Part shown: piece after piece, positions 10,013 to 63,234 of the stretch | Numbering within the stretch: position 1 is the stretch's first letter | How the letters are laid out: each line of letters begins with the position of its first letter | Assembly (NCBI GenBank): GCA_037951105.1 | Contig: JBAMJV010007218.1 | Span: 36,992 to 100,991 of the forward strand | Source: Echinarachnius parma | Taxonomy: Eukaryota; Echinodermata; Echinoidea; Clypeasteroida; Echinarachniidae | Direction of reading: 5' to 3' | Length of the DNA stretch: 64,000 bases | Position numbers and translations under genes: made by a program | Notes under the pieces: generated by a model | What the model saw: only the letters and a program-made list of their open reading frames with translations | Database searches by the model: none | What the model was told of the DNA's origin: nothing

Positions 10013-10103
10013 TTATTTGATTTTTTTTTTTTAGCTACCATTGAGAATTTGGACCTTACTGTTTACACAAACCTTTGTTATTGAACCTTTTTTTAACCCA
10101 CAG

Positions 10104-38250: not shown

Positions 38251-38361
38251 AGTCTTGTTGACGGCTAGGGTAGACCAATAATTGTGGCTACTGAAATCAT
38301 CCAGTGATACTAAACAATTCTGTGGTTGAGCTTGTTTTATAAAAACAGATAATACAGGTAC

Positions 38362-38932: not shown

Positions 38933-40041
38933 GTGTAAATGCAAAACTCGGTTTATTCAGATGGTGCGCATGCGCACTCTGCTTACGCCTCGTGCGTCGT
39001 GTATATCTGACAAAACCTTCAGTGCATTGCATTTACAAAACACACCCTAGAACGTGTATTATCTGTATAATGAAACAGTATCTAAGAGACAGACATGATT
39101 TTTTTCATCCCTGGTCAATGTGTTACATTACATTCAAACTGATAAAGCGCCAAATTAGCACACAGCCAACAAGTAACAACAAAGGTGCATTGAGCTAGTT
39201 AGGCCTGATGCTTCATCCTACCTGGAAACCAGTGGCCGAGAGCATGATCATGACCCAGGACCAGCCTAGTTCCACTGATCTCTAGATATATGATTGTGCA
39301 ATCCTTTACGGTTCAATGAGTTGGGCGGTATGTGTGCTCTGCTACGTTCTGTTGATTTGTATGCAATTCTAGCATATTGACATCGATGAGTTAGATAGAG
39401 CCAATGCTGCTAAATGTTGCTGGTCCGTAATCGGGCTCTTGCCCCCAGTTCTTCTGGTCTCCTGGGTTTCAAGAAGGCTAGCCTCCATAGTAACTGTTTT
39501 GTTCCACTGGCCTGTTTATAGTCAAGTACAATAAATAATAATGAATGTTCAGAATATTCAAATCTTACTTGCCCAAATATAAAATGTAATATGCCTGCTT
39601 ACTTCAATCTGGCAACTAAACTAGACCGTTTGTGAAATTTGACTTGCCCAACAACAATTCTTACTTGCCATGGGCAAATGGAACAGTGCTTTTTTCGAGT
39701 CCTGTTTAAAAACGTTTATAACCAACAACAGAGACATTTTTAGCAGTTCCAGGTTATTGCAATTTAACCTGCTGAAAAATAGTGAAAATCAATATCCTCA
39801 AAACTTAGTTTGGATACATGTACAAAATCAGTACGGTATCATTTTGATGATATTTTGTGTTATAATGATGGAAGCTTTTGCCTTTATCTAAAGGTTTAAA
39901 AACATGTTTTTATTGTTTTTTGCAGAATTATGAACTCTGTAATATGCCTTGCAGAAGGACATGCATGTTGCAGCTGGGAACAATTCCACATTCCTTGCAT
40001 TAATTTGCAATAAAACATAAATACACACTTCAATCAAACGC
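38933..40041. other. Upstream region of the 2A/death-domain gene; no exon seen
   Basis: I find no recognisable promoter motif or 5' exon. If the 2A exon is preceded by a 5' UTR exon, it should lie here or further upstream. Confidence 0.3.
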
Positions 40042-40112
40042 TTGTTCCTTCATAGATGGCCGCTTCAAATTCTCTTCTTTTGTTCCTTCACAGATGGCTG
40101 CTCCAAAGTCAC
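40042..40112 (+). repeat. 38-bp tandem duplication of acceptor-like tract plus ATG
   Basis: TTGTTCCTTCATAGATGGCC (40042 on) is followed 38 bp later by TTGTTCCTTCACAGATGGCT. Each copy has a pyrimidine-rich tract, an AG and an ATGGC start. The second copy is the 2A start. The first ATG (40056) is out of frame and would open a 42-codon uORF ending at 40184. Confidence 0.75.
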
Positions 40113-40242
40113 CCTGTTCATCCCATGTGGACCATCATAGCGAACAGTTGTGCAAGCTCTACCTGTCCACAATCAACCTCATGAGGGCGGGAGACGTTGA
40201 GACCAACCCTGGCCCTGGCCCTAAAAGAGAGCCTCCGGAAAG
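40094..40242 (+). CDS. First coding exon: 2A-like peptide leader
   Basis: The exon encodes 49 residues and two bases. Residues 19-41 form a 2A-like sequence: LCKLYLSTINLMRAG leads into DVETNPGP at 34-41, matching the D-x-E-x-N-P-G-P rule. 2A peptides make the ribosome skip the bond between the last Gly and Pro (here Gly40 and Pro41). In sea-urchin NLR proteins such N-terminal 2A-like leaders have been reported to act as signals giving dual targeting. I chose the start because it follows a good acceptor (CTTCACAG) and gives the frame of the motif. The donor AG|GTAAAA leaves phase 2, which fits all the death-domain exons downstream: the split codon becomes Ser with unit 1. Confidence 0.82.
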
Positions 40243-41376
40243 GTAAAAACTGATAAGGTTGGGTATGACCTGGCAGGGTAACTTGTGGGTGAGGGACTTT
40301 TTTGTATTGAAGGGGCACAAGGGTCAAACACGATTGTTTTCAAGCAATCAGGGTATTTCAAAAGAAGCACCTCGGGAGAGGCATTTAAAATGTGTTGATG
40401 GGAATGAAGGCCTTGAACGGAAGTAGATATTTTCTGGATCATTGTTTTTTTTTGACAGAAAAATCCCAATAAATCTGCCACTTCTCAGGTCTTATGCCTC
40501 ACGACACACATTTTGCCAGTCGAGAGACAGTCGGATGTCAGTTGGGGCCGATTCAACACGATAAATCTGCTCCGACCGACCGGGCCCAACTCTACCTTGA
40601 TTGAAACCAGTCGGATCGGGTCGAGTCGGCTCTGTCTGCGCAGGGCTTTATGCTGTCATCCTCTCCTTGTGCCAAAGTATAAAGATCTACTCCATAGTTC
40701 GGTTTCATAGGTACACAGCAAGCAGGTGGAGCTAAGGATGAACAAACAAAAAAAATCACCACAAATTAAATGACTTGCATATCTCTGTACACAACTTAGT
40801 TATTTTGGGGTGGGGAGTTATCTATAGATTCACCCACCCCCTAAAAACAAACTTCAACACATCTACAGTGTAAATGGTATAATTGATTAATTAACAATCT
40901 CTGTCATGGATCACATCGTATCTAAGCAGTAGGACGTAGTCAGTCAGGATAAACAACCTCACAATGTCTTATGAGAGTGAGCTCAAATATGGTGTGCCTC
41001 AAGACTCAGTCTTGGGGCGATCCTCCTTTAGTAAATATGCTGGGCTACTCACAGACATCACCTGTTCTCAAAACATTGAAGTACATCCCAGTGATGAAAA
41101 CCTTGGTGTGCTACTCGATTCTTAAAAAAACATTGTCTTCACATGTAAATGCATCTTGCAGAACTGCATATGTTTATGATTCTATTGTATCTAACATTAC
41201 TTGTGAATAGAATTGATGCACTCGCTGACGTTTGGCGCATACAGAACCATGAGGCCATATTGGTTCTGTAAGTGGTGGTAATTAATTGCATTGTTTATGA
41301 ATTGCAAAAGAATATGCAATATCACACAAAGTTACCAAAACATATAATTATGTGTTGTTCTTTGTCTGGTGATCCC
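40243..41376. other. Intron 1 of the 2A/death-domain gene
   Basis: It contains a fragment (about 40598-40651) related to the right end of the TIR element at 28569. No exon is evident. Confidence 0.4.
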
Positions 41377-41696
41377 CTTTAATTTACATGTATTATCTTG
41401 ATGTCATACTTGAAGTGTGTTTCACTATTCTTCACCTGTATCTATCTGCCAGAAGTACACCTCAAAGTCTGCATGAACTGCATCTAATGTCAATTAATGA
41501 GGGCCAGCACAGGCCACAAGATGGGTTCTGACTACTCTACCTGCCAGCTATACGCCCCAAACATATAAGTATGTGTAGCTCTTTTCCTGGTGGTCCCCTT
41601 TAAATAACATGTATTATTTGTATGTCATACTTGCAGTGTGTTTCACTATTCTTCACCTTTTTCTATCTGCCAGAAGTACACTTCAAAGTCTGCACG
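41377..41696 (+). repeat. Tandem-type direct repeat of about 97 bp, two copies
   Basis: The block with GTGTGTTTCACTATTCTTCA and CTGCCAGAAGTACAC occurs at about 41377-41473 and again at 41599-41696, just upstream of death-domain unit 1. Confidence 0.75.
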
Positions 41697-42124
41697 ATGG
41701 AGTGCATCTCATCTTACTCTAGGAGGGTCCACAGTGTATGTAGTCAAGATACAGGGAAAGAGGCAGTGAGAACTGACAAATGTATCAAGTGTTACAGTAT
41801 GCATACACCTAGGAGGGCCAATTATTGTATGCAGTCAACATGTAGACCTGGGTAAAGAGGCCACAAGAAGTGACAGATTTATGCAGCACCTTGCTGGTGA
41901 TCTATAGGACAATCTGGCAATGGTATGGAGAAGGATGCGACCCCCGCTTTGTTTGCTTGTGAGATAACGTTGTCGTTTGACCCTTTCCAATTTCAGATGG
42001 GTTACAACACCTTTACTCCTTTCCAAAAACATGACTGCAAATACTAGAATATTTTGTTGATGGTCAATTTGTGCAAAGTCTTTATTATTAATTTCATGTT
42101 TTTTTTGTTTGTTTTTTCTCCCAG

Positions 42125-42393
42125 TTTTGATGATATCCTATGTGAAATAGCTGCACATGTCACGGATGATTACAAGATAAGAGACTTGGGGAATGCGCTC
42201 GGATTTTGCCAGGCCGATATTGAAAACTACCTCAAGACCAATGTGCGGTTAGATCAAGTGACTAGTGAAGGGACACTGCAGATGCTACGAGACTGGCATG
42301 ACACTGTGGGAAAGGCCGATGAGAGGTCTGTCCTCAGGGAAGCTTTGGTGAAGGCAAAGCTGCACAGGATAGCAGATGAGCATCTCCCAGAAG
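42125..42393 (+). CDS. Death-domain exon, unit 1
   Basis: The exon of 269 bases codes for about 90 residues of a death-fold domain. Landmarks are LGFCQADIENYL (helix 2-3 region) and MLRDWHDTVGK with the helix-5 tryptophan, followed by REALVKAKLHRIADEHL, the AL..L..IA signature at the end of Death domains. Such domains recruit adaptors by like-with-like contacts. Borders are TTTTTTCTCCCAG acceptor (phase 2) and GAAG|GTATAC donor (phase 1). It joins the 2A exon in frame. The first 24 residues (through NAL) differ strongly from units 2-4, whereas the remaining 65 are nearly identical, pointing to conversion or recombination inside the exon. Confidence 0.82.
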
Positions 42394-42785
42394 GTATACA
42401 ACCATGACAACGTAGAGCTATAATGTATATATTTAGTTCACATATACAGTAATTTAGAATCGGCTTTCAGCTACCCAATTTGAAATGCAAATTATTATTT
42501 TGTGTTATGTCTTGATATGAAACATGAATTGTTGCACATTACCTTTGTATAATCGTATACTTCTATATTAATGTCTTGGCCATTGGGAACATGGTGGGTC
42601 ATGTATCAGTTGATCGTACGACTGATTGATTGTTTAATCATGTATCCTGTTAAAGGACCCTGGTTTGGTGACTGAGTTAGAATACCTACCATAATAACCT
42701 GTTATAATGTTGATGTGTGAAATAAGAAGGACTTTGCTAAATAATCCAAATTATTTCCACTTGTTTATATGATGTATATTTGCAG

Positions 42786-42831
42786 AGTTGCAGAGTGGAT
42801 CAACTCAATCATCACAAGCTGGTAGCTCAGG
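42786..42831 (+). CDS. Ser/Gln linker exon, unit 1
   Basis: This 46-base exon is too short for ordinary ORF searches. It enters in phase 1 after TATTTGCAG and leaves in phase 2 at CAGG|GTAAGA. Joined to the death exon it reads ELQSGSTQSSQAGSS, a flexible polar linker. The same exon, identical in sequence, follows each of the four death exons. Its phases return the frame to that of the next death exon, making death plus linker a symmetric 2/2 module. Confidence 0.75.
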
Positions 42832-43003
42832 GTAAGATTTATTTACACACATAGTGTTCCTTGGTTGATATTCAACTGTATATTGCTTCTAGTGAATCAG
42901 GAAGTTACGTAGTGCACAATATGTGACCTTACACCACAAAACGACCAATAAGTCGGGAAAACTGATTGTGCTGATATTCATTTAACATTAAAATAGAAGT
43001 CAT

Positions 43004-44955
43004 CAGTGGCGTAGCTACGGGGGGGGGGGGGGCACGGGGGGCACGTGCCCCCCCCCCCCCCCCCCAATCGTTTGGCAAAAAAAAAAAAAAAAAAAATTAC
43101 GACCAGACATTAGCCAAATGTGTCTATATCATTCATTATTATCATGTTTTATTAAATGTGTGATGATAATAATGTTATCACCGATAATAAAGAAGAACAT
43201 AACGGTCGTTCCCTAGTACTAGCAATAGCGCACCTATACGGTATCAGTTTGAAGAATCCTTCCAATAAAGCGCCTTATTCAAATTTTTTGTTTGAAAAGG
43301 ACTGTAAATCTCGTTTTTTGCCGCGCGCTTCGCGCGCATACTGTTTCTCATATTGCAAGTTTCATTTCGGTTTGCTTGAACTCACCTTTCGAACTGTGTT
43401 GGTCAATGTAATTTCTCAAACGAAGTTTATTAAACCCTCATCTATAGCACACCGTCACAGAAAATAAAATAATCTGAAATAATAATGATATATTTCAGTA
43501 AATTCGGTGCATATGCGCTGAACGCAAATCATATTGGAATATCATGTCCCCCCACATTTGAAAGTGGAAGAGATTGTCCCCCTCCCTTTGTCATTATGTA
43601 TGTTTGGTTCCATACTTATATACTTCATATTACGTGATCGAGGTGTGCACCAAATCGCACAATTTCACGCCCCAAAATACAAAAGCTCCCTACTGTGGGA
43701 GGGGGACACCCCCTCCCACACCCTCCCCCACTCGGTCGCTTCGCTTCCTCACAATGTCTCCCCTCCACTTTTGAGAAGTTGTTGACGCCCTTGCTTAGTT
43801 TCATTGGAGCTCAATGCCCTAGACTATATCGATGGCTCTATAGTATACAGGATCACGTGGATCCATCTCATGCAAGGCTCAATCTTTCCTCGCTATTCCC
43901 GTTTAAAAATACGTTACGAGAAGGTTCACTATTATAATACAATGAAAAATAAAAAGAAAATAATGACCATACTTCTACAGTGATATTTTGAACACCAATT
44001 TCAAAAATGTCTCCACGTGGGAGGGGGTAAACCCCCTCCCACACCCTCCCCCCAATAAGTATAGACAAGCACGGATATAACGATAACGACGTGAGCGTAT
44101 TTGAGTCTGGTGTGTGTGCATGTACACGTAGGTTCGATTGTGTTTGTATACTTTATCAGGGAGATGCCTTAAAGGGGTATTCCGGGCCTGATAAAACCAT
44201 TCGTTATTTGAATAAGCAGAATAAGAGGCATCATTGGTGAAAATTTGATCAAAATCGGACAAGAAACACGGGAGTTATAGCCATTTGAACATCATGTAGT
44301 AATGAGCGATCGTTTCAAAATTGCCGCCATATGCAACATCATTGACGAGCAACTCGCCATGGCTTTAGTACATGAAAATACACTTATTTCTCATTTTCGT
44401 TGCTAAAAATTAATTTTTCTCTGCTTGTTTTCACGAATTCATAGAAGAATATCGATGGGCCAACCTCTGTGGAATTTGTAAGCTCATAAATTTGCTTTGT
44501 TATTAAGAAAATTTAAATTTTTTTAAATTTCCATGTAGAAGTCAAAATGGCTGCAGCTCGCAAGTGACGTCACGATCGATAGCAATTGCGAACGATACTA
44601 AAAATCGGAGCAAAGTTTATCCTGTCATAACTTTTTTATTGCTCTACCGTTTTGGCTCAGATTTTCGATCATGATTCTTCATATTCACTTCATTGTATAG
44701 CAAACATCACATTCCTGGGGTGGAATTCCCCTTTAAGTCTTGATTTCTTTAATTCAGTATTATCAAATTTCCTTCCAAGGTATGCACCAGATTGCATTAT
44801 TTCAAGTGAAAACTTGCAAAAGCTCCCTACCGTGGGAGGGGGGACACCCCCCTCCCACACCCTCACCCCCTCGGGCGCTACGCGCCCTCGGGCTTGGTCG
44901 CTCCGCTCCCTCGCAGTTGTGCCCCCCCAATCCGTTGACCCTCGCTACGCCACTG
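43004..44955. mobile_element. hAT-like element in unit 1 with perfect 8-bp duplication
   Basis: It begins CAGTGGCGTAGCTACGG and ends CTCGCTACGCCACTG. GAAGTCAT is repeated exactly on both sides (42996-43003 and 44956-44963). Units 2-4 show the empty site with a single GAAGTCAT followed by TACCTTTAAAGG. The interior has G/C runs, GCCGCGCGCTTCGCGCGC, and GCACCA modules of the same family as 5930-7160. A TTAA-flanked MITE is nested at 44169-44736. Confidence 0.9.
44169..44736. mobile_element. TTAA-flanked MITE (AGGGGTATTCCGGG ends)
   Basis: TTAAAGGGGTATTCCGGG and the inverted GGTGGAATTCCCCTTTAA bound about 560 bp. It is nested in the hAT-like element. Confidence 0.7.
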
Positions 44956-44968
44956 GAAGTCATTACCT

Positions 44969-45610
44969 TTAAAGGGACAGTCCCTCTTTTGCAAAACGTC
45001 TGAACAGTTTCCAGTTGATGGATGGGGATGAATGAAACACACACAAAAAAAAAATCAGATCGAACAGCCCTATAATTTGGATTCTACGAATGAAAAACGA
45101 ATGCGTCCCTCCATCAGACTATATATCGGTCAATAAAAGAGTTTAACTGATTTAGCATAATATTACAACTATATTGTACTTATTCTTGTAAAGGTATTGT
45201 GAAGCCGACATTTGTAAAGGTATGTCACGAAACAAATCTCAAAAATGGAGAATATGTAATTACATATAGTCGGTTTAAGCGAGGTGTGGTTATTTTGCCT
45301 AGTGTGCGGTCATGCTATTCTTAATTGTGCGCGGGTCACGTAGCTAGCGCGGGTCATGTAGGGGTCACACATCGCGTTGTGGTACTTCCTGGAATCCGTG
45401 TACGAACTTCCTCACTGGGTGAATATACATATAATGCACAATTAACCGTTGGATTATGGTTTATTAGTTTTAGGTCTATAACTCCACGAAAAGGAGATTT
45501 CAAGCCCTAATTTTTTCAGGCATGCTATTAAATTACATTTTTCTTTCATATAAGACAATAACCTCGCAACTTTTGAAATTTGGCTTGCAAAAGAGGGAAT
45601 GTCCCTTTAA
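44969..45610. mobile_element. TTAA-flanked MITE carried in the tandem unit
   Basis: AGGGACAGTCCCTCTTTTGC at the left and GCAAAAGAGGGAATGTCCCT at the right are inverted ends next to TTAA. The MITE was in the unit before duplication. Further copies are at about 47530-52792, 54717-57836 and 59760-60395, each except this one split by later insertions. A stray fragment is at 9944. Confidence 0.75.
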
Positions 45611-46640
45611 AATGGTATATAATTTGTTATAATATTTGGACTAAGCAAACCCTTTCAAAATGAACGCCAAAGATTTGGAATATGGCTGAAGCATTCTTAA
45701 AATAAGGGAGAAACGGGCCGCTTAAAAGATCAGTGCCCATTCAAGCGCTGTAATAAGATCACATTTATTAGGTGAAAACAAATATTTAAACATGATTTCC
45801 GACGCTCTAAATTTCACAGGAGGTAGATTAAGACACGCTAATTTAGGAAAATAATTCTGATTCACATCTTATTAAAGAAATTATGAAAAGTGATACAACC
45901 TCATGTTTTTAAGACAGGCAAATCTCATCACACAAATAAAACATTTGAACTTGAAAATGTATAACATAGTGATGTTTAAGGCACAATATATGAATGTATT
46001 CCAAGATTAGCATCTTATAGATGAAATCAAAACAAATGTTTGTATGAAGCAGATTGATTTGGAGTTCCATAATCACATTTCAAAAGTAATTCATCTGCAT
46101 TTGTAGGCAACGTTAGGAAATGAACCATTAACTTCTCAAGGCCATTACTTGGCCGTTCGGAGAGATTAGAGATGGCACTTTTTTCTGGTTATCGTTGACA
46201 TGTCTACTTAACATGTGCAAAAGGATTAAACAATCAAGGCAGCTTGAAATTCGAACCTAAAAATCTGGCCGTGTACACTTTTCGTTGGAATCGACCATAT
46301 GCATGTAATCTCACCCTAGGAGGACCAACAGTGTATACAGTCAACATCTAGGCCTGGGTAAAGAGGCCACAAGAAGTGACATGTTTATGGAGTACCTTAG
46401 TAAAAGGACAATCTGGCAATGGTATGGAGAAGGACACGACCCTCTCTTTGTTAGCTTCTGAGATCAAAATTGTCTTTTGGTCCTTTCCAATTTCAGATGG
46501 GTTGTAACACCTCTACTCCTTGAGTGGATCCTGGCATTTTGATATGTTTACAAATTACACACAGGCATGATTGCAAATACAAGATTGTTTCTTTTTATGT
46601 CCATTTTGTCTTGTAGGTTTCATTCTTTAATATCCCCCAG

Positions 46641-46909
46641 TTTTGATGATACCCTACATGGTATTGCTAAGAACATCACTGACAATGACAAGATTGAAGT
46701 CTTGGGAAGAGTGCTCGGATTTTGCCAGGCCGATATTGAAAACTACCTCAAGACCAATGTGCGGTTAGATCAAGTGACTAGTGAAGGGACACTGCAGATG
46801 CTACGAGACTGGCATGACACTGTGGGAAAGGCCGATGAGAGGTCTGTCCTCAGGGAAGCTTTGGTGAAGGCAAAGCTGCGCAGGATAGCAGATGAGCATC
46901 TCGCAGAAG
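46641..46909 (+). CDS. Death-domain exon, unit 2
   Basis: It has the same 269-base length and 2-in/1-out phases as unit 1. It opens FDDTLHGIAKNITDNDK, IEVLGRVLGFCQADIENYL, then the shared MLRDWHDTVGK and ALVKAKLRRIADEHLAEG core. No stop or frameshift occurs and both splice sites are intact. A second acceptor (TTGTCTTGTAG) lies 24 bases upstream in the same phase and would add RFHSLISP. An ATG at 46567 opens the same frame with a hydrophobic stretch (RLFLFMSILSC), which might suggest a signal peptide start, but it is more simply the intron's pyrimidine-rich tract. Confidence 0.82.
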
Positions 46910-47311
46910 GTATACAACAATGACAACGTAGAGCTATAATGTATATATTTAGTTCACATATACAGTAATTTAGAATCGGCTTTCAGCTACCCAATTTGAA
47001 ATGCAAATTATTATTTTGTGTTATGTCTTGATATGAAACATGAATTGTTGCACATTACCTCTGTATAATCGTATACTACTATATTAATGTCTTGGCCATT
47101 GGGAACCTGGTGGGCCATGTATCAGTTGATCGTACCACTGATTAATTGATTAATCGTGTATCCTTATGTTAAAGGACCCTGGTTTGGTGACTGAGTTAGA
47201 ATACCTACCAAGTACAACAATAACCTGTTATAATGTTGATGTGTGAAATAAGAAGGACTTTGCTAAATAATCCAAATTATTTCCACTTGTTTATATGCTG
47301 TATATTTGCAG

Positions 47312-47357
47312 AGTTGCAGAGTGGATCAACTCAATCATCACAAGCTGGTAGCTCAGG
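47312..47357 (+). CDS. Ser/Gln linker exon, unit 2
   Basis: Identical to the linker of unit 1, with the same TATTTGCAG acceptor, GTAAGA donor and 1-in/2-out phases. It allows unit 2 to join unit 3, or any later death exon, in frame. Confidence 0.75.
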
Positions 47358-48568
47358 GTAAGATTTATTTACAAACATAGTGTTCCTTGGTTGATATTCA
47401 ACTGTATATTGCTTCTAGTGAATCAGTAAGTTACGTAGTGCATAATATGTGAACTTACACCACAAAACGACCAATAAGTCGGGAAAACTGATTGTGCTGA
47501 TATTCATTTAACATTAAAATAGAAGTCATTACCTTTAAAGGGACAGTCCCTCTTTTACAAAACGTCTGAACAGTTTCCAGTTGACGGATGGGGATGAATG
47601 AAACACACACAAAACAAATCAGATCGAACAGCCCTATAATTTGGATTCTCATATGGAAAAGTAGTCCCATTTGCTCCCTGCACGCGCGGCCGGGATCAGG
47701 GAGCGCGCGCGCATATTACACAACGTGTCAAACTGTCCTCTTCACGGGCTCCTAACACGCTAGTATGAATATAAAATACTACCAATTCCAAACCCGAAGG
47801 AATTGAGAGCTGGGTCACTCGGCATTCGATTCTTTATATTTTTCTTTATAACATATTACAATTTGGAAGAGAATCGATATTGCATCTCGTCGGACCAGCT
47901 TTTGAAAATGACTCTTGCGCTTCATTTTCCCCCGCCTTTTTGTATCAAATACACGCAAATTGTACAGTAATGTAGGTTACGCGCGGCGAGGGTCAACTTT
48001 GAACGGTCGCAACTCGTCGGCCGAATGTTCTTACGATCTGGGTCTCTCGGTATTCGATGTTAAAAACATAAATTTATAACATATGTAAAACTCATGCTAA
48101 TTGGTTACTGAACGTCGTCAGATATAAAGATTTACTAAAGAGCCTTTTATTTATAAACCAATCACCTCTATGGACATAGCGCCTCATTAGCATATCGGAC
48201 GATTACGTCATATGACTGCTACATTCATTGGTGGGTGAACGTACGTACAGTATTTTGTACGTACATATTTTTTAAACATATTTTTTGTGCGCTTAACATT
48301 ATGGAGATCAAATATGTTTAAAATCATGTAACGTTAGTGTTTTTTATTTCATTATAATCGAGAACAAAACTGCTGTACTAGAGCGATTTCCGCTCGAAAG
48401 ATACTGCAATCTACCTATTTCCGATAATGGACAAGTCCAAACTTTTAGACCGCGTATGCTCATTAATTTTTTTTTTTCCTTTTTTTTTCTTTCACCTTTC
48501 CAGGCATTTATTGATTACACTTCAAGTTCCATACAGTTTAACAAATCATGTTTCAATAATTTTCTCTT

Positions 48569-50167
48569 TTACATCAATTTAGACATTACAAATATGTTTT
48601 TATCATAAATGGTAAATAATACATTTTTTTTTTTGTTTTCTTTATGCAAGTAATCATTTATTTGTATGCGAGCGTGAACTTCATTTAAGAATGTAAACCA
48701 TAGTTTTGTGCTTCTTTCATCTTTTCCTGATTGATTTCTGATAACTATCATTTTATATATGCTCCAAAAAGCTATAGTTAAAATATCATTGATTTTGTCT
48801 TCTACATTCATTTTCAGTAATGTGAATACATTCATTTCTACATTTACATTATAAACATATTTTACCATTTGCGTAAAGTTTCTAAAAAATATTTCATTCA
48901 TTTTACATTCCAATAGAGCATGACATAAATCTTCTCGACAATGGCAAGTTTCACATGTATCACTATCGCTAAGTTTCCACAAAAATAATTTTCTTTTTAC
49001 TGCGATCAAATTATAAATTACTTTAAAGTTAAATTGTCTTAATTTGTTCTCCTTAATGCACACAACATTTCTTTTATAAACATATTTCCAATCAACATAA
49101 CAATCTAATTTCTTTACCCAATATGATGGGCCTTCAATTGTGTTTCCATTTTTCGAAAGAAAAATATAAAATAATTTACTTGGTACTTTTTGAATAAGTC
49201 TTTCTTTTCCTCCAATCAAAACTGTTGGTATTTCTAAACATATTGGTTCTTTCACATTACTCATCCATACTTTGGGTATCGCTTTTTGTAATTTAAAATA
49301 TTCAAACATTACAATTACTTTTGATTTCTTATTACGAACATTTTCTATTAATGTTAATGTTGTAATAAATCTATTATCAAAACAAACATTTTTCAAATAA
49401 ATTATTCCACTTGAGTACCAGTTCTTAAAAAAGAAAGGTTTCTTTTCAAATACTACATATTTATTATACCATATAATCTGTTTATCTAAATCAACACTAT
49501 TATTTTCATTTTGTGTATTCATAATGACCCATGATTTCAGTATTTCTAAATAAAACGGTGACAATTTGTTAACAAAGTATGTGTCTACCATGAATACATC
49601 AATAGAACAATTCATAATTAACTTTAGCCCACCTAAAGATTGAAAATAATAATTTGACATCTCTTTCCAAAAGCCATCTGAACCATCTAATATTTTACCA
49701 AGCCATTTTAATCTGAAACTTATAATCAACTTTTCAATATCGATCATCTTAATACCACCTTCATGATAGTCTTTAATAATTGTTTCTCTTTTAACTTTGT
49801 CTATTTTTGAATTCCAAACAAAATTATACAAAATTTGTTCTAATCGTTTTCTTACATGTTGTGGTACCGAACAATACATTATCAAATGAACAACTTGACT
49901 AATGAGCAATGTTTTAACAATAAGTACTCTACCAAAAAGTGTAAGGTTTCTTTTTTTCCAATTATCTACAATTCTTTGAATCTTTTGTAATTTTGTTTCC
50001 CAATTCTTTTTTACCACCAGTTCCAAATCAGGACTTATATGGACTCCTAAATATTTTACGCTACCTTCAGTCCATTGTAGTCCATATTCATGAAAATCCC
50101 ATCTTTGTTGTATTGGGCCTAACCATTTCAATATTGTTTTATCTTTATTAATAAGGGGACCGGCTGC
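48569..50167 (-). pseudogene. LINE polyprotein, C-terminal part
   Basis: This continues the RT reading frame after an in-frame TAG (50168-50170). It contains SVKYLGVHISPD just after the RT core, a long thumb/connection region with GGIKMIDIEKLIISFRLKWL, and a CETCHCREDLCHALLEC zinc-knuckle-like cluster at about residues 393-409 counted from the first Met. These are standard parts of L1/Tx1-clade ORF2. The first Met is not a real start. The open length of over 500 codons shows the insertion is fairly young. Confidence 0.8.
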
Positions 50168-51745
50168 CTATACAAATGATTCTAGTTCTTTTATAATATA
50201 TCTTAAAGATGATTTTTCCCGAAAAAATAACGATGTATCGTCTGCATATTGCAGCACTTTTAATTCTATTTTTTTATCACCATACAAAATACCTTTACTT
50301 TGTTCATCCTGTCTAATCTTTTCTGCCATTATTTCTACGGCCAATATAAACAACATTGCAGATAGAGGACAGCCTTGTCTTATTCCTCTGCCTATCTGAA
50401 AACTTCTAGTTTTCCACCCGTTAACCAATACTGAACTTTTTACATCTTTATACATCAATTTTACCCAATTACAAAAAAAATCTACTCCTAAGTTAAAATG
50501 TCTCAAACATTCTTCTATAAACTGAAATTCGATAGTATCGAAGGCTTTTTTAAAATCCACCATCATAAATGCACCTTCAAACCCATTTTCATACACAAAT
50601 TCAAACACATCTTGTGTTAGTCTTACATTAAAACCACTTAATCTATTTTTTATATAACCAACCTGATTCTCATGTATAATACTTGGTATAACTTTTTGGA
50701 GTCTGCTCGCCATAACAGCAGCCATTATCTTATAATCATAATTCAACAATGTTATCGGTCTCCAATTATTCAAATTTTCTATTTCTCCTTTTTTATAAAT
50801 CAATGTAATAATTCCGTACTTTTGCGTATCTGACATCATATTTTTATGAAAATTTTCATTCAGTGCATTAACAAAAATATACTCAATATCGTTCCAAAAT
50901 ACTTGATAAAATTCTATTGTTAAACCATCTCCACCTGGAGCCTTATTCTTTTTCATCTGAAATATTACTTTACGACATTCTTCTATTGTTATTAAACCTT
51001 CACAATTGTTCTTATCTATTTCGGATAATTTATTAACTCTACATTGTTCAAAATATTTATTAATCTCAGTTAATTCTATTTTTTTACTAGCGTACAAACT
51101 TTCATAGAATGACACTACCTCATTCTGTATCTCATCTTGTTTTTCAATAAACTTTCTATCTTTTCTCAACCTTACAATATTCTTTTTCTCACCATTTTTC
51201 TTTTCTAAACCCATAAAATATTTAGTGTTTCTTTCACCTTCTTCAATCCACTTAACTCGTGCTCTAATTGATGCTCCTTTACTATCTTTTACATACATTT
51301 CTTCCAATTTATTTTTCGTTCGAATATATTCATCTTTAGTGTCTTCATCTATTCTATCTTCAACGTCTACTATATTTTGAAGTATTTTAATTTGTTGTTC
51401 TAATTTTTTCCTTAACACATCAGCATTTTTTTTTTTTTTAGCACAAAATCTTTGTGTAAATTCGCGGGATCTTATTTTTATAAGTTCCCATCTTTCAGAA
51501 AAACTAACATTCTTTTTTTTAATATTATCAACAATGTTTCTTATTTGCTCTTTATAATCATCATCCTTAAGAACATTATTATTTAATTTCCAATATCCGG
51601 GACCTTGCTGTTTTTTCCCTAACATTAATTTTATAAAAATAGCATTATGGTCGCATCGTATTGCTGGACGAATATCTGTTGCTACTACCTTAGAATTTAA
51701 GTTATTACTTATTAACCAATAATCAAGGCGTGATGCAACATTCAA
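50168..51745 (-). pseudogene. LINE polyprotein, end of endonuclease plus reverse transcriptase
   Basis: The piece of 525 residues starts in the endonuclease end (SRLDYWLIS, then CDHNAIF at 31-37). After a coiled, Lys/Glu-rich spacer comes the RT: NKAPGGDG at 267-274, NWRPI at 327-331, DFKKAFD (motif A, two catalytic Asp) at 397-403, GRGIRQGCPLS (motif B) at 452-462 and YADD (motif C) at 500-503. All catalytic residues are present. The stop after ESFV interrupts the protein just beyond the RT palm, so it cannot make a full enzyme. Confidence 0.85.
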
Positions 51746-52190
51746 AAATAAATTTCTCTACGTAAACTGTTTTTTTAGTGGGTTTCTTTTTCTCCATATA
51801 TCACATAAATCAAAAAATCAAACATTTTAAATTCATAGGGGTCTTATAATAATTATTTTTATTCTCTTTTACATCATTATGAGTACAAAGTATTGAATTA
51901 TAATCTCCACCTATTACCAATTCGTGGTGTTGCTTTCTATTTTGTTGAATCCAACAAGCAATTTTTTTAAAAAACTGTTCTCTAATTTTTTTCTCTGTTG
52001 GTGCATAAATATTAACAATACATAATTTACAATTATTCCCTATAACATTCATCATAATTGCTCTTCCATCTGGATTAAGCAAAACACTTTCAGATGTTAT
52101 TTGTAAAGGAAAAGTGCTAGATATTAAAATTGCCACGCCTCTGGAGTGGTTAGTTCCATTACCAAAAAAAACATTGTCCTTTCCATTCAT
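51746..52190 (-). pseudogene. LINE APE endonuclease fragment
   Basis: The readable part has SRGVAILIS, NIYAPTEKK and GGDYNSILC, the middle motifs of an APE-type endonuclease (the last with the catalytic Asp and Asn). The N-terminal Asn and Glu motifs are missing because the element is truncated. Its frame ends at NLKCLIF; a frameshift and a TAG in QFT-stop-RN separate it from the downstream part. Confidence 0.75.
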
Positions 52191-53818
52191 TTCTAATTAT
52201 TTTTAAAATGTCGTATGCTCATGAATAATTCATGAAGCTTGAACTTGAGCGCGCTGTGCGCGCGTTAGCGCAGAAAATTGATTTAATGGGAATTTCAGTG
52301 GAAAACTTTTCCATATGCGAATGAAAAACGAATGCGTCCCTCCATCAGACTATATATCGGTCAATAAAAGAGTTTAACTGATTTAGCATAATATTACAAC
52401 TATAGTGTACTTATTCTTGTAAAGGTATTGTGAAGCCGACATTTGCAAAGGTATGTCCCAGAAAAAATCTCAAAAATGAAGAATATGTAATTACATGTAG
52501 TCAGTTTAAGCGAAGTTTGGTTATTTTGCCTAGTGTGCGGTCAAACTATTCTTAATTGTGCGCGGGTCACGTAGCTAGCGCGGGTCACGTAGGGGTCACG
52601 CATAGCGTTGTGGTACTTCCTGGAATCCGTGTACGAACTTCCTCACTGAGTGAATATACATATATACGACGAAAAGGAGATTTCAAGCCCTAATTTTTTC
52701 AGGCATGCTATTAAATTTTTCTTTCATATCAGACAATAACCTCGCAACTTTTGAAATTTGGCTTGCAAAAGAGGGAATGTCCCTTTAAAATGGTATATAA
52801 TTTATTATAATATTTGGACTAAGCAAACCCTTTCAAAATGAACGCCAAAGATTTGGAATATGGCTGAAGCATTCTTAAAATAAGGGAGAAACGGGCTGCT
52901 TAAAAGATCAGTGTCCATTCAAGCGCTCTAATAAGATCACATTTATTAGGTGAAAACAAATATTTAAACATGATTTCCGACGCTCTTAATTTCACAGGAG
53001 GTAGATTAAGACACGCTAATTTAGGAAAATAATTCTGATTCACATCTTATTAAAGAAATTATGAAAAGTGATACAACCTCATGTTTTTAAGACAGGAAAA
53101 TCTCATTACACAAATAAAACATTTGAACTTGAAAATGTATAACATAGTGATGTTTAAGGCACAATATATGAATGTATTCCAAGATTAGCATCTTATAGAT
53201 GAAATCAAAACAAATGTTTGTATGAAGCAGATTGATTTGGAGTTCCATAATCACATTTTAAAAGTAATTCATCTGCATTTGTAGGCAACGTTAGGAAATG
53301 AACCATTAACTTCTCAAGGCCATTACTTGGCCGTTCGGAGAGATTAGAGATGGCACTTTTTTCTGGTTATCGTTGACATGTCTACTTAACATGTGCAAAA
53401 GGATTAAACAATCAAGGCAGCTTGAAATTCGAACCTAAAAATCTGGCCGTGTACACTTTTCGTTGGAATCGACCATATGCATGTAATCTCACCCTAGGAG
53501 GACCAACAGTGTATACAGTCAACATCTAGGCCTGGGTAAAGAGGCCGCAAGAAGTGACATGTTTATGGAGCACCTTAGTAAAAGGACAATCTGGCAATGG
53601 TATGGAGAAGGACACGACCCTCTCTTTTTTAGCTTCTGAGATCAAAATTGTCTTTTGGTCCTTTCCAATTTCAGATGGGTTGTAACACCTCTACTCCTTG
53701 AGTGGATCCTGGCATTTTGATATGTTTACAAATTACACACAGGCATGATTGCAAATACAAGATTGTTTCTTTTTTTGTCCATTTTGTCTTGTAGGTTTCA
53801 TTCTTTAATATCCCCCAG

Positions 53819-54087
53819 TTTTGATGATACCCTACATGGTATTGCTAAGAACATCACTGACAATGACAAGATTGAAGTCTTGGGAAGAGTGCTCGGATTT
53901 TGCCAGGCCGATATTGAAAACTACCTCAAGACCAATGTGCGGTTAGATCAAGTGACTAGTGAAGAGACACTGCAGATGCTACGAGACTGGCATGGCACTG
54001 TGGGAAAGGCCGATGAGAGGTCTGTCCTCAGGGAAGCTTTGGTGAAGGCAAAGCTGCGCAGGATAGCAGATGAGCATCTCCCAGAAG
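53819..54087 (+). CDS. Death-domain exon, unit 3
   Basis: It has 269 bases, phases 2-in/1-out, and the same acceptor (ATATCCCCCAG) and donor (GAAG|GTATAC) as unit 2. The product is the same as units 2 and 4 except for Glu in place of Gly in VTSEETLQ and Gly in place of Asp in DWHGTVGK. The second change lies next to the conserved helix-5 Trp. No disabling change is present. The alternative in-phase acceptor 24 bases upstream is kept. Confidence 0.82.
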
Positions 54088-54489
54088 GTATACAACCATG
54101 ACAACGTAGATCTATAATGTATATATTTAGTTCACATATACAGTAATTTGGAATCGGCTTTCAGCTACCCAATTTGAAATGCAAATTATTATTTTGTGTT
54201 ATGTCTTGATATGAAACATGAATTGTTGCACATTACCTCTGTATAATCGTATACTACTATATTAATGTCTTGGCCATTGGGAACCTGGTGGGCCATGTAT
54301 CAGTTGATCGTACCACTGATTAATTGATTAATCGTGTATCCTTATGTTAAAGGACCCTGGTTTGGTGACTGAGTTAGAATACCTACCAAGTACAACAATA
54401 ACCTGTTATAATGTTGATGTGTGAAATAAGAAGGACTTTGCTAAATAATCCAAATTATTTCCACTTGTTTATATGCTGTATATTTGCAG

Positions 54490-54535
54490 AGTTGCAGAGT
54501 GGATCAACTCAATCATCACAAGCTGGTAGCTCAGG
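54490..54535 (+). CDS. Ser/Gln linker exon, unit 3
   Basis: Identical to the other linker exons, with the same 1-in/2-out phases and splice sites. Confidence 0.75.
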
Positions 54536-54913
54536 GTAAGATTTATTTACAAACATAGTGTTCCTTGGTTGATATTCAACTGTATATTGCTTCTAGTGAA
54601 TCAGTAAGTTACGTAGTGCATAATATGTGAACTTACACCACAAAACGACCAATAAGTCGGGAAAACTGATTGTGCTGATATTCATTTAACATTAAAATAG
54701 AAGTCATTACCTTTAAAGGGACAGTCCCTCTTTTACAAAACGTCTGAACAGTTTCCAGTTGACGGATGGGGATGAATGAAACACACACAAAACAAATCAG
54801 ATCGAACAGCCCTATAATTTGGATTCTACAAATGAAAAACGAATGCGTCCCTCCATCAGACTATATATCGGTCAATAAAAGAGTTTAACTGATTTAGCAT
54901 AATATTACAACTA

Positions 54914-56103
54914 CTAGCTGTACCCGCGGAAATCCGCGGGTTTTTGAAAGAGAAAGACGATGATGACATAACAACACTTTAAAACTTTACTAAATATCCC
55001 ACAGTCATCATTTAAATAGTAAGACAAAATAGACTCGGGCGATTCAATCCCACCCCACAACTCGTCGGGGCCCAGTCCAACGATACATCCGACCAATGTA
55101 TAACAATTAATCATGATGGTTTAGTATCCACGCAAAGTTATTCAGTTATCCCCCCATATTTCATTATGATCCATAATTTGTTCCGCTTGTATTAAAATAG
55201 ATACAATAATATATGTTTGTGTTCTTGCTAATAAAGTAGCTTCGCCGCTCCCCCCCCCCCCCCCCCCCCCGCGGCTCCAATTGCCTGTATGACAAATAAC
55301 CCGTAGTGTCCCCTACACGTTTCATATCATAAACTAAGTTCTCCCGCGTATACCTTTGTTCATATTCTTGAAGATATTACCTCCCCCGTCCATTCTACCC
55401 CACCCCCCCCCCCCCACCCCCTACGCGTCTCTTCTGGAACTGCATGGTAGCTTCGTGGCTGACTTAATACATCTTACCACAAGTTGGCGCAATTATAGTA
55501 TCGTGTACGGTAGGGCGAATGAGATAGTGACCAGAGACGATGGTCAGCAGGTCAGTGAGCTATGCAAATAAACTACGGTTCGGTGGGGTAATTAGATGAC
55601 TGCGCGACGTGTATACACGGCTGTACAGCCATTGCGCGTTGTATAACCGCAGCTAAATTGAAGTTGTCGCATTTTGTCGTCGATGCACTTACAAACACGA
55701 TGCCAATCGGTAATAGCGATCATTACCATACCATCCGCGTAATATAAATATTGATATTTATCAAAACCTGGGTAGTTTCGCAACGTGTTATATCTAAAAT
55801 GGTTTCTCGATATATTATTTGTTTTATCTACTCCAATTTATATTCTTACAAATACTTTTACGGCGATAAATCGTTAGTCAATGCTCGGCGTCTTAAACGG
55901 GCAATTGACATTGCTGACTTTCCCTTTTCTTCGATCTGGACGACGACCACGGGGCGGGAGCGACTCGGGAATGCCTTATTGTCCTCCGCAAAACGAATAT
56001 CCTTCGATCGCGACGGTCGGGAAGTCGCCGAATCTTCGGGGTGAGGATATCTCGAGTGGGAACCATTTTGGGGGGTTGAAGCTTACCGTATTAATATAAT
56101 AGA
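54914..56103 (-). mobile_element. Non-autonomous Helitron in unit 3
   Basis: Read on the minus strand it begins TCTATTATATTAATACGG and ends with a hairpin (CCCGCGG, loop, CCGCGGG at 54923-54940), nine bases and CTAG. TC at the 5' end, CTRR at the 3' end with a hairpin about ten bases before it, and insertion between A and T without target duplication are the Helitron rules. Paralogous units show the empty site (CAACTATAGTGTAC in unit 2). There is no Rep/helicase coding sequence, and short frames inside have no recognised domain. Confidence 0.85.
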
Positions 56104-56353
56104 TAGTGTACTTATTCTTGTAAAGGTATTGTGAAGCCGACATTTGTAAAGGTATGTCCCAGAAAAAATCTCAAAAATGAAGAATATGTAATTACATGTA
56201 GTCAGTTTAAGCGAAGTTTGGTTATTTTGCCTAGTGTGCTGTCAAGCTATTCTTAATTGTGCGCGGGTCACGTAACTAGCGCGGGTCACGTAGGGGTCAC
56301 GCATAGCATTGTGGTACTTCCTGGAATCCGTGTACGAACTCTGGGTGAATATA

Positions 56354-57650
56354 CAGAGCGTATCAAAAAAAGCGTTACACTTTTGAACATTTTTTCAAAA
56401 TTACATTTGTATATATTTAGAATATTTTTTCATGTCGTTGGATGCCCAATGGTCTCATCTATCAAGTGGTACTAACAAAACAAATTTTCGTTCACGCTTG
56501 GGCGAACACTGACTGTTTTTGTACAGAGTGTCAAAAAGGGCTTGCGCCAATTTGAAAGAAGAGGGACAATTAAACCAGCAGACCGAATAAATACTCCCAT
56601 TCAAACAAATTGCTCTGTGCCATGAATTTAAGATTATTTGATGATAGTGTAATCATTTTGTGGCAATTTTCTATCATAATTTAAATGATTTCATTGCTTT
56701 ATGCATGGGTTAGAATAAATAAGCCATAGATTGCTAGATAATAAAAGGATTGCATCGTTAATGACAAAATTTACAGCCTGTCCTCATTAACGATGCAAAT
56801 CCTTTCATTGAGTGTGACACATACAAAATATGACCCAGAAGCATGCATGGACGAATATTCATGTTGATAGATTGATGGGCTGATTGATTGATTGATTAAT
56901 GGATTGATGGATTGATTAATGGATTGATAGATTGATGGATGGATGGATGGATGGAGGGATAGATTGATGGATGGATGGATGGATGGATGGATGGATGGAT
57001 GGATTGATTGATTGATTGATTGATTGCTGGATTGATTGATGGATGGATTGATCGATTAAATGATGGATTGATGGATGGATGGATTGATTGATCGATTGAT
57101 TGATTTCTCATTGATTGATTGATTGATTTCTCATTGATTGATTGATTGATTTCTCATTGATTGATTGATGAATCGGTTGAATGATTTGACGATTAATTGA
57201 TTTGGTACTTTTTGAATGAATGAATGGCATGTGGTTTTGGTGTGTCTATGCTTTAAAAAAGATCTTGAAGTAATTACCCATTATTGATTATCACCCATGC
57301 ATATAAAACAATGAAATCAGTTAAATTATGATAGAAAATTGCCACAAAATTATTACACAATCATAAAATATTCTTAAATTTATGGCAAAGAGCAATTGTT
57401 TGAATGGGAGTACTTATTCAATCTGCTGGTTTAATTGTCCCTCTTCTTTCAATTTGGCGCAAGCCCTTTTTGACACTCTGTACAAAAACTGTCAGTGTTT
57501 GCCCAAGCGTGAACGAAAATTTGTTTTGTTAGTGGCACTTGATAGATGAGACCATGGGGCATCCATCGACGTGAACAAATCTTATAAATATATAAAAATG
57601 TAATGTTGACAATTTTTTCAAAAGTGTAACGCTTTTTTTGATACACCCGG
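56354..57650. mobile_element. Mariner-like palindromic element in unit 3
   Basis: CAGAGCGTATCAAAAAAAGC at the left and, inverted, GCTTTTTTTGATACACCCGG at the right, with TA on each side. The paralogous site reads GAATATACATATAATG with one TA. Arms of several hundred bases are complementary, and the centre is a GATTGATGGATGG microsatellite (about 56877-57180). Confidence 0.85.
56877..57180. repeat. (GATT/GATG)n microsatellite at palindrome centre
   Basis: Tetranucleotide GATT and GGAT runs occupy the loop of the surrounding palindrome. Frames across them give repetitive peptides and are not genes. Confidence 0.9.
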
Positions 57651-58864
57651 TACATATAATGCACAATTAACCGTTGGACGACTGTTTATTAGTTTTAGGT
57701 CTATACCTCGACGAAAAGGAGATTTCAAGCCCTAATTTGTTCAGGCATGCTATTAAATGACATTTTCTTTCATATCAGACAATAACCTCGCAACTTTTGA
57801 AATTTGGCTTGCAAAAGAGGGAATGTCCCTTTAAAATGGTATATAATTTGTTATAATATTTAGACTAAGCAAACCCTTTCAAAATGAACGCCAAAGATTT
57901 GGAATATGGCTGAAGCATTCTTAAAATAAGGGAGAAACGGGCTGCTTAAAAGATCAGTGTCCATTCAAGCGCTGTAATAAGATCACATTTATTAGGTGAA
58001 AACAAATATTTAAACATGATTTCCGACGCTCTAAATTTCACAGGAGGTAGATTAAGACAAGCTAATTTAGGAAAATAATTCTGATTCACATCTTATTAAA
58101 GAAATTATGAAAAGTGATACAACCTCATGTTTTTAAGACAGGAAAATCTCATTACACAAATAAAACATTTGAACTTGAAAATGTATAACATAGTGATGTT
58201 TAAGGCACAATATATGAATGTATTCCAAGATTAGCATCTTATAGATGAAATCAAAACAAATGTTTGTATGAAGCAGATTGATTTGGAGTTCCATAATCAC
58301 ATTTTAAAAGTAATTCATCTGCATTTGTAGGCAACGTTAAGAAATGAACCATTAACTTCTCAAGGCCATTACTTGGCCGTTCGGAGAGATTAGAGATGGC
58401 ACTTTTTTCTGGTTATCGTTGACATGTCTACTTAACATGTGCAAAAGGATTAAACAATCAAGGCAGCTTGAAATTCGAACCTAAAAATCTGGCCGTGTAC
58501 ACTTTTCGTTGGAATCGACCATATGCATGTAATCTCACCCTAGGAGGACCAACAGTGTATACAGTCAACATCTAGGCCTGGGTAAAGAGGCCGCAAGAAG
58601 TGACATGTTTATGGAGCACCTTAGTAAAAGGACAATCTGGCAATGGTATGGAGAAGGACACGACCCTCTCTTTTTTAGCTTCTGAGATCAAAATTGTCTT
58701 TTGGTCCTTTCCAATTTCAGATGGGTTGTAACACCTCTACTCCTTGAGTGGATCCTGGCATTTTGATATGTTTACAAATTACACACAGGCATGATTGCAA
58801 ATACAAGATTGTTTCTTTTTATGTCCATTTTGTCTTGTAGGTTTCATTCTTTAATATCCCCCAG

Positions 58865-59133
58865 TTTTGATGATACCCTACATGGTATTGCTAAGAACAT
58901 CACTGACAATGACAAGATTGAAGTCTTGGGAAGAGTGCTCGGATTTTGCCAGGCCGATATTGAAAACTACCTCAAGACCAATGTGCGGTTAGATCAAGTG
59001 ACTAGTGAAGGGACACTGCAGATGCTACGAGACTGGCATGACACTGTGGGAAAGGCCGATGAGAGGTCTGTCCTCAGGGAAGCTTTGGTGAAGGCAAAGC
59101 TGCGCAGGATAGCAGATGAGCATCTCCCAGAAG
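58865..59133 (+). CDS. Death-domain exon, unit 4
   Basis: It has 269 bases and the same phases and splice sites as units 2 and 3. The protein is the same as unit 2 except for Pro instead of Ala near the end (DEHLPEG). It is the last near-identical copy. The next death exon (62951) is a different paralogue. Intact copies 2 to 4 so similar to one another suggest recent duplication or continuing homogenisation. Confidence 0.82.
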
Positions 59134-59535
59134 GTATACAACCATGACAACGTAGCGCTATAATGTATATATTTAGTTCACATATACAGTAATTTAGAAT
59201 CGGCTTTCAGCTACCCAATTTAAAATGCAAAATATTATTTTGTGTTATGTCTTGATATGAAACATGAATTGTTGCACATTACCTCTGTATAATCGTATAC
59301 TACTATATTAATGTCTTGGCCATTGGGAACCTGGTGGGCCATGTATCAGTTGATCGTAACACTGATTAATTGATTAATCGTGTATCCTTATGTTAAAGGA
59401 CCCTGGTTTGGTGACTGAGTTAGAATACCTACCAAGTACAACAATAACCTGTTATAATGTTGATGTGTGAAATAAGAAGGACTTTGCTAAATAATCCAAA
59501 TTATTTCCACTTGTTTATATGCTGTATATTTGCAG

Positions 59536-59581
59536 AGTTGCAGAGTGGATCAACTCAATCATCACAAGCTGGTAGCTCAGG
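59536..59581 (+). CDS. Ser/Gln linker exon, unit 4
   Basis: Identical to the other three. It leaves in phase 2, which matches the entry phase of the divergent death exon at 62951, so the split codon becomes Gly. Confidence 0.75.
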
Positions 59582-60405
59582 GTAAGATTTATTTAGAAAC
59601 ATAGTGTTCCTTGGTTGATATTCAACTGTATATTGCTTCTAGTGAATCAGTAAGTTACGTAGTGCATAATATGTGAACTAACACCACAAAACGACCAATA
59701 AGTCGGGCAAACTGATTGTGCTGATATTCATTTAACATTAAAATAGAAGTCATTACCTTTAAAGGGACAGTCCCTCTTTTACAAAACGTCTGAGCAGTTT
59801 CCAGTTGATGGATGGGGATGAATGAATACACACACAACAAATCAGATCGAACAGCTCTATAATTTGGATTCTACGAATGAAAAACGAATGCGTCCCTCCA
59901 TCAGACTATATATCGGTCAATAAAAGAGTTTAACTAATTTAGCATAATATTACAACTATATTGTACTTATTCTTGTAAAGGTATTGTGAAGCCGACATTT
60001 GTAAAGGTATGTCACGGAAAAAATCTCAAAAATGGAGAGTATGTAATTACATGTAGTCAGTTTAAGCAAGGTTTGGTTATTTTGCCTAGTGTGCGGTCAT
60101 GCTATTCTTAATTGTGCGCGGGTCATGTAGCTTGCGCGGGTCACGTAGGGGTCACGCATAGCATTGTGGTACTTCCTGGAATCCGTGTACGAACTTCCTC
60201 ACTGGGTGAATATACATATAATGCACAATTAACCGTTGGACGACGGTTTATTAGTTTTAGGTCTATAACTCCACGAAAAGGAGATTTCAAGCCCTAATTT
60301 TTTCAGGCATGCTATTAAATGACATTGTCTTTCATATTAGAAAATAACCTCGCAACTTTTGAAATTTTGCTTGCAAAAGAGGGAATGTCCCTTTAAAATG
60401 GTATA

Positions 60406-61314: not shown

Positions 61315-61699
61315 CTATGTATAATTTGTTATATTTCAAAATGAACACCAAAGATTTGGAATATGGCTGAAGCATCCTTAAAATAAGGGAGAAACGGGCC
61401 GCTTAAAAGATCAGTGTCTATTCAAGCGCTGTAATAAGATCACATTTATTAGGTGAAAAGAAATATTTAAACATGATTTCCGACGCTCTAAATTTCACAG
61501 GAGGTAGATTAAGACAAGCTAATTTAGGAAATACCAAAATTCTAGAAAGGCATATTTTTTATGAGGGTGTTGTACTACGAGCTCTGTTCGAAAACACCAA
61601 CAAATTATCTTTCTTTCTTCCTATTATACAAGAACATAGTAACAATTGTACCGAAATGCGATACAAACTTTTTTGGGCAAATTAAACTTTGTGCGAACA

Positions 61700-62950: not shown

Positions 62951-63234
62951 GGCTCTACAAGAGGCAGAACTTGTTCGTTTGGCAGAGAGCATTGATCCAA
63001 GCTGTTACGATGTTATCGGAATTTACCTTGGATTTAGTCATGCTGAGTTGAATCAGATCAGAGTCGAACATCTGAACAATCTGAAGGGTGCTCTTATTGA
63101 AGTGTTGATGACATGGAACACCAGAGAGGAAGGAGGCAATAAGAGGGAGATTCTGGCTGAGAAGCTGAAGCTGAAGAAAGCAGATCTGGATGATCTGGCA
63201 GGGAAAGTGCTTAGATGTGAGCTGGTTGTCAAAG
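62951..63234 (+). CDS. Divergent death-domain exon 5
   Basis: The exon of 284 bases codes for about 95 residues: ALQEAELVRLAESIDPSCYD, then IGIYLGFSHAELNQI, LIEVLMTWNTREEGG and ILAEKLKLKKADLDDLAGKV. The pattern L..LA..(L)G, LMTW, L...L....L..LA is again Death-domain-like but only distantly related to the four tandem copies. The acceptor is phase 2 and the donor AAAG|GTATGT phase 1, the same phases as the other death exons, so it descends from, or was captured into, the same module scheme. A second death domain before NACHT would suit an NLR, but that exon is outside the window. Confidence 0.78.

Follow-up and report, generated by a model that had tools for sequence, protein, structure and literature searches.

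A 64,000-nucleotide (nt) stretch of Echinarachnius parma contig C7209, hereafter the window (coordinates on the + strand unless stated), carries an array of exons encoding death domains (DDs). The sequence supports a single gene composed of a leader exon ending in phase 2, four internal DD-linker pairs that are entered and left in phase 2, and a fifth DD exon entered in phase 2, and a paralogue on another contig, C502, supports its assignment to the NLR family. The locus is probably the 5' part of a Death-NACHT-LRR gene of the NLRD type, led by a 2A-like peptide, in which the DD-linker pair has been multiplied in tandem and which would give products with several DDs. The readings weighed below overlap in part, and the likelihoods we attach to them are not meant to sum to one. 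The exons are as follows.

40094..40242, + strand, likely leader exon (first coding exon), from ATG to a phase-2 donor, 49 codons plus 2 nt, with the 2A-like motif GDVETNPGP
42125..42393, + strand, death-domain exon 1 (DD1), 2-in/1-out, Pfam Death 24.5 bits
42786..42831, + strand, linker exon LK1-1, 46 nt, 1-in/2-out
46641..46909, + strand, death-domain exon 2, 2-in/1-out, alternative start 46617
47312..47357, + strand, linker exon LK1-2, 46 nt, 1-in/2-out
53819..54087, + strand, death-domain exon 3, 2-in/1-out, alternative start 53795, Glu at a position where aligned DDs have Gly (16/16, see below)
54490..54535, + strand, linker exon LK1-3, 46 nt, 1-in/2-out
58865..59133, + strand, death-domain exon 4, 2-in/1-out, alternative start 58841, six-helix model
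59536..59581, + strand, linker exon LK1-4, 46 nt, 1-in/2-out
62951..63234, + strand, death-domain exon 5 (DD5), a different DD subtype, 2-in/1-out, with a relative in C502 that is 78% identical

DD exons 1-4 are each 269 nt long, with the acceptor CAG/T and the donor G/GTATAC (the slash marks the splice site), and in units 2-4 a second candidate acceptor in the same phase lies 24 nt upstream of the exon. The four LK1 exons are identical, are bounded by TTTGCAG and GTAAGA, and encode the Ser/Gly/Gln-rich linker ELQSGSTQSSQAGSSG. One DD exon and its LK1 form a stop-free cassette of 315 nt, or 105 codons, comprising a DD of about 90 residues and the linker. Splice sites and reading frames are intact in all four units, and the coordinates and phases bear out the initial annotation, which had described four cassettes of a 2-in/1-out DD exon and a 1-in/2-out linker exon, each 2/2 as a whole. 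The accompanying statement that every combination stays in frame holds for whole cassettes, but loss of a linker alone would join a 1-out DD to a 2-in DD and break the frame. Owing to the phase symmetry of the pair, a receptor that gains, loses or skips a whole cassette should remain readable, with only the number of DDs changed. Were the donor of a DD exon left unused, at window 42394-42408 or the corresponding position of another unit, the frame would run on for four codons before a stop; these codons read GIQQ in unit 2 but GIQP in units 1, 3 and 4, in the C2089 unit and in the C502 unit that comes first. Intron retention at this site would yield a short leader-DD product.

The cassettes had also been proposed to lie between a phase-2 leader and a phase-2 DD exon, and candidates for both are in place, the likely leader at 40094-40242 and the DD exon as DD5 with its 2-in boundary. 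The leader encodes MAAPKSPCSSHVDHHSEQLCKLYLSTINLMRAGDVETNPGPGPKREPPE; its ATG immediately follows an acceptor-like site, and it ends GAAAG/GTAAAA in phase 2. The 2A motif is at window 40193, and a scan of both strands of the window revealed no second one. A leader with an N-terminal D(V/I)ExNPGP motif is present in the window, and the motif recurs in C2089 and C5448 (L019), where the leader is likewise open (96% amino acid identity by tblastn for C2089), and in a further NLR copy that lies upstream of the array on C7209 (L046), where the motif is present but the frame is broken and a matching in-frame start is absent. The DNA read from C502 stops short of the leader position. An open reading frame (ORF) at 41604-41855, close before DD1 and ending in the vicinity of a phase-2 donor-like site, was rejected as leader, since the matching frame has stops in relatives (L020, L025, L027, L037 and C502b among the loci listed). 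The surroundings of the leader form the following region.

39723..42124, + strand, 5' region of the gene, parts of which are conserved before the first DD at other loci

Portions of this 39.7-42.1 kb region also precede the first DD at three other loci: the upstream copy, C502 (from 40298) and C2089 (from about 39728). What units 2-4 have in common with unit 1 begins at 41808, which leaves them no more than the final 0.3 kb of the region. Lacking the leader and nearly all of the 5' region, units 2-4 have the appearance of internal exons in a single gene whose front end is carried by unit 1. The presence of another NLR copy upstream might lead one to suspect instead that each unit is part of its own tandemly duplicated gene. 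Against this, units 2-4 are accompanied by no more than the short remnant just described, the stretches between the units have no match to a 2A leader, NACHT or LRR (one LRR query), and C502 has two cassettes ahead of one NACHT. We regard separate genes as extremely unlikely.

The part of the gene that would carry the ATPase is out of reach in the window, because the contig ends 766 bases past DD5 inside a repeat, and no NACHT can be read.

63263..64000, + strand, high-copy transposon-like repeat at the contig end, found at 38 other places with 91-94% identity (among the best 40 candidates scored of 6335)

An ORF at 63744-63998 was rejected as a receptor exon since it sits in this repeat. The initial annotation took the array gene for an NLR; the window itself holds no NACHT, but the C502 paralogue does. 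On the minus strand of C502 the order is DD-LK1-DD-LK1-DD5-linker 2-NACHT, with every junction in phase. The relative of DD5 is here followed by linker 2 (LK2; 60 nt, 1-in/1-out) and a NACHT exon entered in phase 1, which matches Pfam NACHT with an E value of 5e-19 (69.1 bits) and NB-ARC with 17.6 bits, below the cut-off of 23.5. An LRR-like exon, called by eye and not by profile, lies further downstream. When residues 1-315 of the C502 model (927 residues) were compared with public protein sequences, none of the 8000 candidates scored reached E <= 0.001. The upstream copy (C7209:13088-19335) has the 2A motif, one DD, linker 2, a NACHT split over two frames and an LRR-like exon at window 10095-10205, also called by eye; the frames of its leader and its NACHT seem to be disrupted, and it may be a pseudogene.

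The identity of the DDs is indicated by several results. DD1 and DD5 score 24.5 and 22.9 bits against Pfam Death, both above the cut-off of 22.6, and the DD exons match the FAS death domain among PDB sequences, with a best E value of 5e-4. Unit 4 is modelled as a bundle of six helices, with a mean predicted local distance difference test score (pLDDT) of 89.6; the DD5 model has a mean of 78.8 and a weak C-terminus, with values below 60 from residue 71 on. The gene thus has the N-terminal Death domain of the NLRD type. The cassettes are also tandem duplicates, which together with the Pfam scores of DD1 and DD5 and the six-helix model makes the array more than a chance arrangement. The duplicated units are listed below.

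45426..47660, + strand, unit 2, tandem-duplicated, about 2.2 kb
52667..54913, + strand, unit 3, tandem-duplicated, 98.6% identical to unit 4
57709..59958, + strand, unit 4, tandem-duplicated

Units 2-4 are recent tandem copies, judged by 96-99% identity over 2.2-2.6 kb, and differ pairwise at 1-3 positions per 269 nt exon and 3-6 per 402 nt intron. Unit 1 has a mosaic structure: of the 25 positions at which it differs from unit 4, 24 are within exon nt 1-72, corresponding to helices 1-2 of the unit 4 model, and the remaining exon, intron and linker are nearly identical, a pattern such as gene conversion would leave. The DD pair of C502 resembles this one, in that all 20 differences between its members (20/269 nt) lie within nt 4-133. 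The stretches between the window units are unlike each other. Between units 2 and 3, frames resembling a non-LTR retrotransposon (judged by eye; the long frame is interrupted) occupy window 48569-52196 on the minus strand, and between units 3 and 4 there are low-complexity tandem repeats of 8/12 bases (window 56822-57136), flanked by the inverted repeats 56349-56722 and 57281-57655.

The number of cassettes differs between loci. A scan of the 1.2 Gb for LK1 plus donor, 49 bases with at most 3 mismatches, gave 10 matches, nine of them exact: four on C7209, three on C450, two on C502 and one on C2089. The reversed control gave none. More diverged copies are found in C4251 (DD-LK1-DD5, with LK1 recognizable at the DNA level only) and C5448. 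In C450 the order is DD5-LK2-LK1, repeated three times and followed by a DD of the first subtype (C450:21021-45164); the three DD5-type units are open, and the composite cassette would again be 2/2 if LK2 is 1/1 as in C502. The 10 kb downstream of this array (L047) contain retroelement-like frames and no NACHT match. Eight of the loci L016-L041 (26 in all) have linker 2 after a DD, and neither LK1 nor DD5 was detected between them (L020, L021, L026, L027, L036, L037, L038 and L041), although diverged linkers might escape detection. The C502 duplication has other boundaries than that of the window and includes a homologue of 61541-62907, which points to an independent expansion. That the window and its related loci differ in their number of cassette-type modules suggests ongoing evolution in how many signalling heads a receptor has.

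Of these loci, C2089 can be aligned piecewise and collinearly with about 29 kb of the window, yet has one cassette. It holds the leader, a DD, LK1, DD5 and linker 2, and matches the window at 91-97% over 40541-42648, 91-96% in a block at about 45 kb and 93-94% over 61378-63267; its LK1 block is 95% identical to unit 1 and 98% to units 2-4. Further upstream, 33928-35848 (93-94%) and 37621-39236 (98%) are also matched, all aligned blocks being in the same order, and no contig but C2089 matched these two stretches among the best 40 scored of 32886, which speaks for allelism. For window 15500-20500, where a transposon-like repeat fills the matches, C2089 was not among the best 40 scored of 11691, a result that tells nothing either way. 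Beyond linker 2, C2089 departs from C502 after a 1161-base match at 94.7%. C2089 represents either the second haplotype of the window locus or a duplicate of very recent origin.

In the former case, one may ask whether the array was created by the assembler through stacking of haplotype copies, the more so as equal-scoring pairs of matches on different contigs hint that both haplotypes may be present in parts of the assembly. We find this very unlikely. There are no runs of N in the window, the repeated stretch is a unit of 2.2-2.6 kb and not a long collinear block, and the sequences between units differ. The collinear backbone of C2089 carries one unit, and separate arrays exist in C502 and C450, the two cassettes of C502 with the different duplication boundaries described above. 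These observations argue against stacking, short of proof.

In all seven cassette copies compared (four in the window, two in C502 and one in C2089) the DD exon is free of indels and stops, and introns and upstream flanks of these copies carry indels. The ratio of nonsynonymous to synonymous substitution rates (dN/dS; Nei-Gojobori, 14 pairs, short exons) is 0.37, 0.40, 0.45, 0.47, 0.48, 0.50, 0.55 and 0.69 for the eight between-locus pairs that include a window array DD, and 0.43, 0.61, 0.67 and 0.96 for the other four, the highest being C502a/C4251. Within loci it is 0.64 for units 1/4 and 1.64 for C502a/C502b. Compared with C502, window units 1 and 4 differ at 50-59 of 269 nt in the DD exon (19-22%), 6-8% in the intron that follows, 0-1 of 46 nt in LK1 and 31-33% in the sequence past LK1. 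Across loci (C450, C2089 and C502; block e.g. window 59392-59762), the intron is 2-8% diverged and the adjoining DD exon 8-22%, and in C450 the intron and LK1 block comes after linker 2 instead of after the DD. The intron-LK1 block seems to have spread or been homogenised among loci as a unit.

Several points weigh against the reading as a gene with multi-DD products. With an 8-residue extension, the unit 4 DD reaches 20.1 bits against Pfam Death, below the cut-off. Unit 3 has Glu in place of a Gly present in 16 of 16 aligned DDs (a hand-picked set with units 1 and 4 in and units 2 and 3 out), and with this invariant residue lost, not every copy need be used. All three exon differences between units 2 and 3 alter the protein, and the dN/dS values of 0.96 and 1.64 may reflect relaxed or diversifying evolution, although the counts are small. 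Units 2-4 are so young and alike, about 1% apart including introns, that selection on each copy cannot be seen. The long repeat-filled gaps between units might hinder exon inclusion, and no NACHT was met in the 5.4 kb beyond linker 2 of C2089. Some of these points, namely the youth of units 2-4, the altered residue of unit 3 and the large inserts between units, would be expected if only one cassette, either unit 1 or unit 4 beside DD5, were normally spliced and the rest were decaying by-products of duplication, and the single cassette of C2089 fits this as well. On the other hand, splice sites and frames are intact in four of four units, and more diverged arrays have stayed open in C502 (20/269 nt between DDs) and C450 (three DD5-type units). 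Unused spares are a reading that we take seriously but hold to be unlikely.

The initial annotation proposed that the gene could make receptors with one to five DDs or use them as mutually exclusive exons. A different use of the same exons would be alternative or mutually exclusive splicing, with one or few DDs per transcript that differ in adaptor preference. The phase symmetry permits this, and the concentration of differences in exon nt 1-72 (units 1 and 4) and nt 4-133 (C502 DDs) counts in its favour. But units 2-4 encode almost the same protein, so that a choice between them gains little and mutually exclusive use seems unlikely. We consider this reading rather improbable as a whole, noting that it overlaps with a multi-DD receptor where skipping merely trims the number of DDs.

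Published receptors share some of these features. The SpNLR2A receptors of sea urchins (PMC4981915) are similar to the window gene in the N-terminal 2A-like peptide (GDVETNPGP here) and Death domain, and to its C502 paralogue in the NACHT and LRR-like exon. Sea-urchin Death-NACHT-LRR receptors of this kind carry N-terminal 2A-like leaders, about 35% (85/241) in one count, and in another count 14 of 87 database entries had 2A at the very N-terminus (PMC4981915). Unlike SpNLR2A, the loci described here have five DD exons (window), three (C502) or two (C2089 and C4251), and the linker exon is duplicated. The Death-NACHT(-LRR) order is also that of NLRD proteins from amphioxus, sea urchin and sponge (PMC11508797), from which the present loci differ in the arrayed DD cassettes and the two DD subtypes per gene. 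Apaf-1 homologues with double DD repeats (PMC2246300) are likewise nucleotide-binding receptors with repeated DDs, but these have NB-ARC and a C-terminal double DD, whereas the DDs here are N-terminal and the paralogue has NACHT. An Apaf-1-like arrangement of NB-ARC and C-terminal DDs is not found in C502, where the DDs precede the ATPase. NOD2 has two CARDs and is not known to have a cassette array or a copy-number series. Its tandem CARDs (PMC3314614) provide a further example of more than one death-fold domain before NACHT. The opinion that no such array is known in an NLR must accordingly be narrowed, as tandem death-fold domains are on record (PMC3314614, PMC2246300), but a limited search of the open-access literature found no report of a DD cassette array with variable copy number.

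Taking the locus as the 5' part of a multi-DD NLRD-type gene, the transcript would read leader-(DD-LK1)x4-DD5-linker 2-NACHT-LRR, the last three parts lying off the contig. For this copy, we infer the NACHT, transcription, splicing, the number of DDs per protein and the function. Ordinary splicing would include several DDs in cis, and unequal crossing-over would set the number of cassettes. Upon ligand binding, the NACHT domains would assemble, and DDs held in cis on flexible Ser/Gly/Gln linkers could become locally more concentrated, so that a DD assembly is seeded at a lower threshold. By analogy with other death-fold assemblies, multiple DDs may thus favour seeding upon NACHT oligomerisation. 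A bolder proposal, which we put forward as possible though doubtful, is that DD dosage is a heritable receptor setting tuned by recombination, with C7209 and C2089 as alleles encoding five and two DDs, with different numbers and a second type of cassette (DD5-LK2-LK1) at related loci, and with splicing perhaps trimming the number. If so, the signalling threshold would evolve through simple unequal crossing-over, each step being viable owing to the phase symmetry and leaving the sensor untouched.

The number of death-fold domains per receptor subunit should set how easily a signalling assembly is seeded. To our knowledge, there are few natural series in which this number is the main variable. 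One genome seems to offer loci with one, two and four copies of the same in-frame cassette and a differently built three-copy array, with perhaps two alleles of a single locus among them, and such a natural set would allow the dependence of the signalling threshold on DD number to be tested. A symmetric exon pair combined with unequal crossing-over may thus represent a genomic route for tuning innate receptors.

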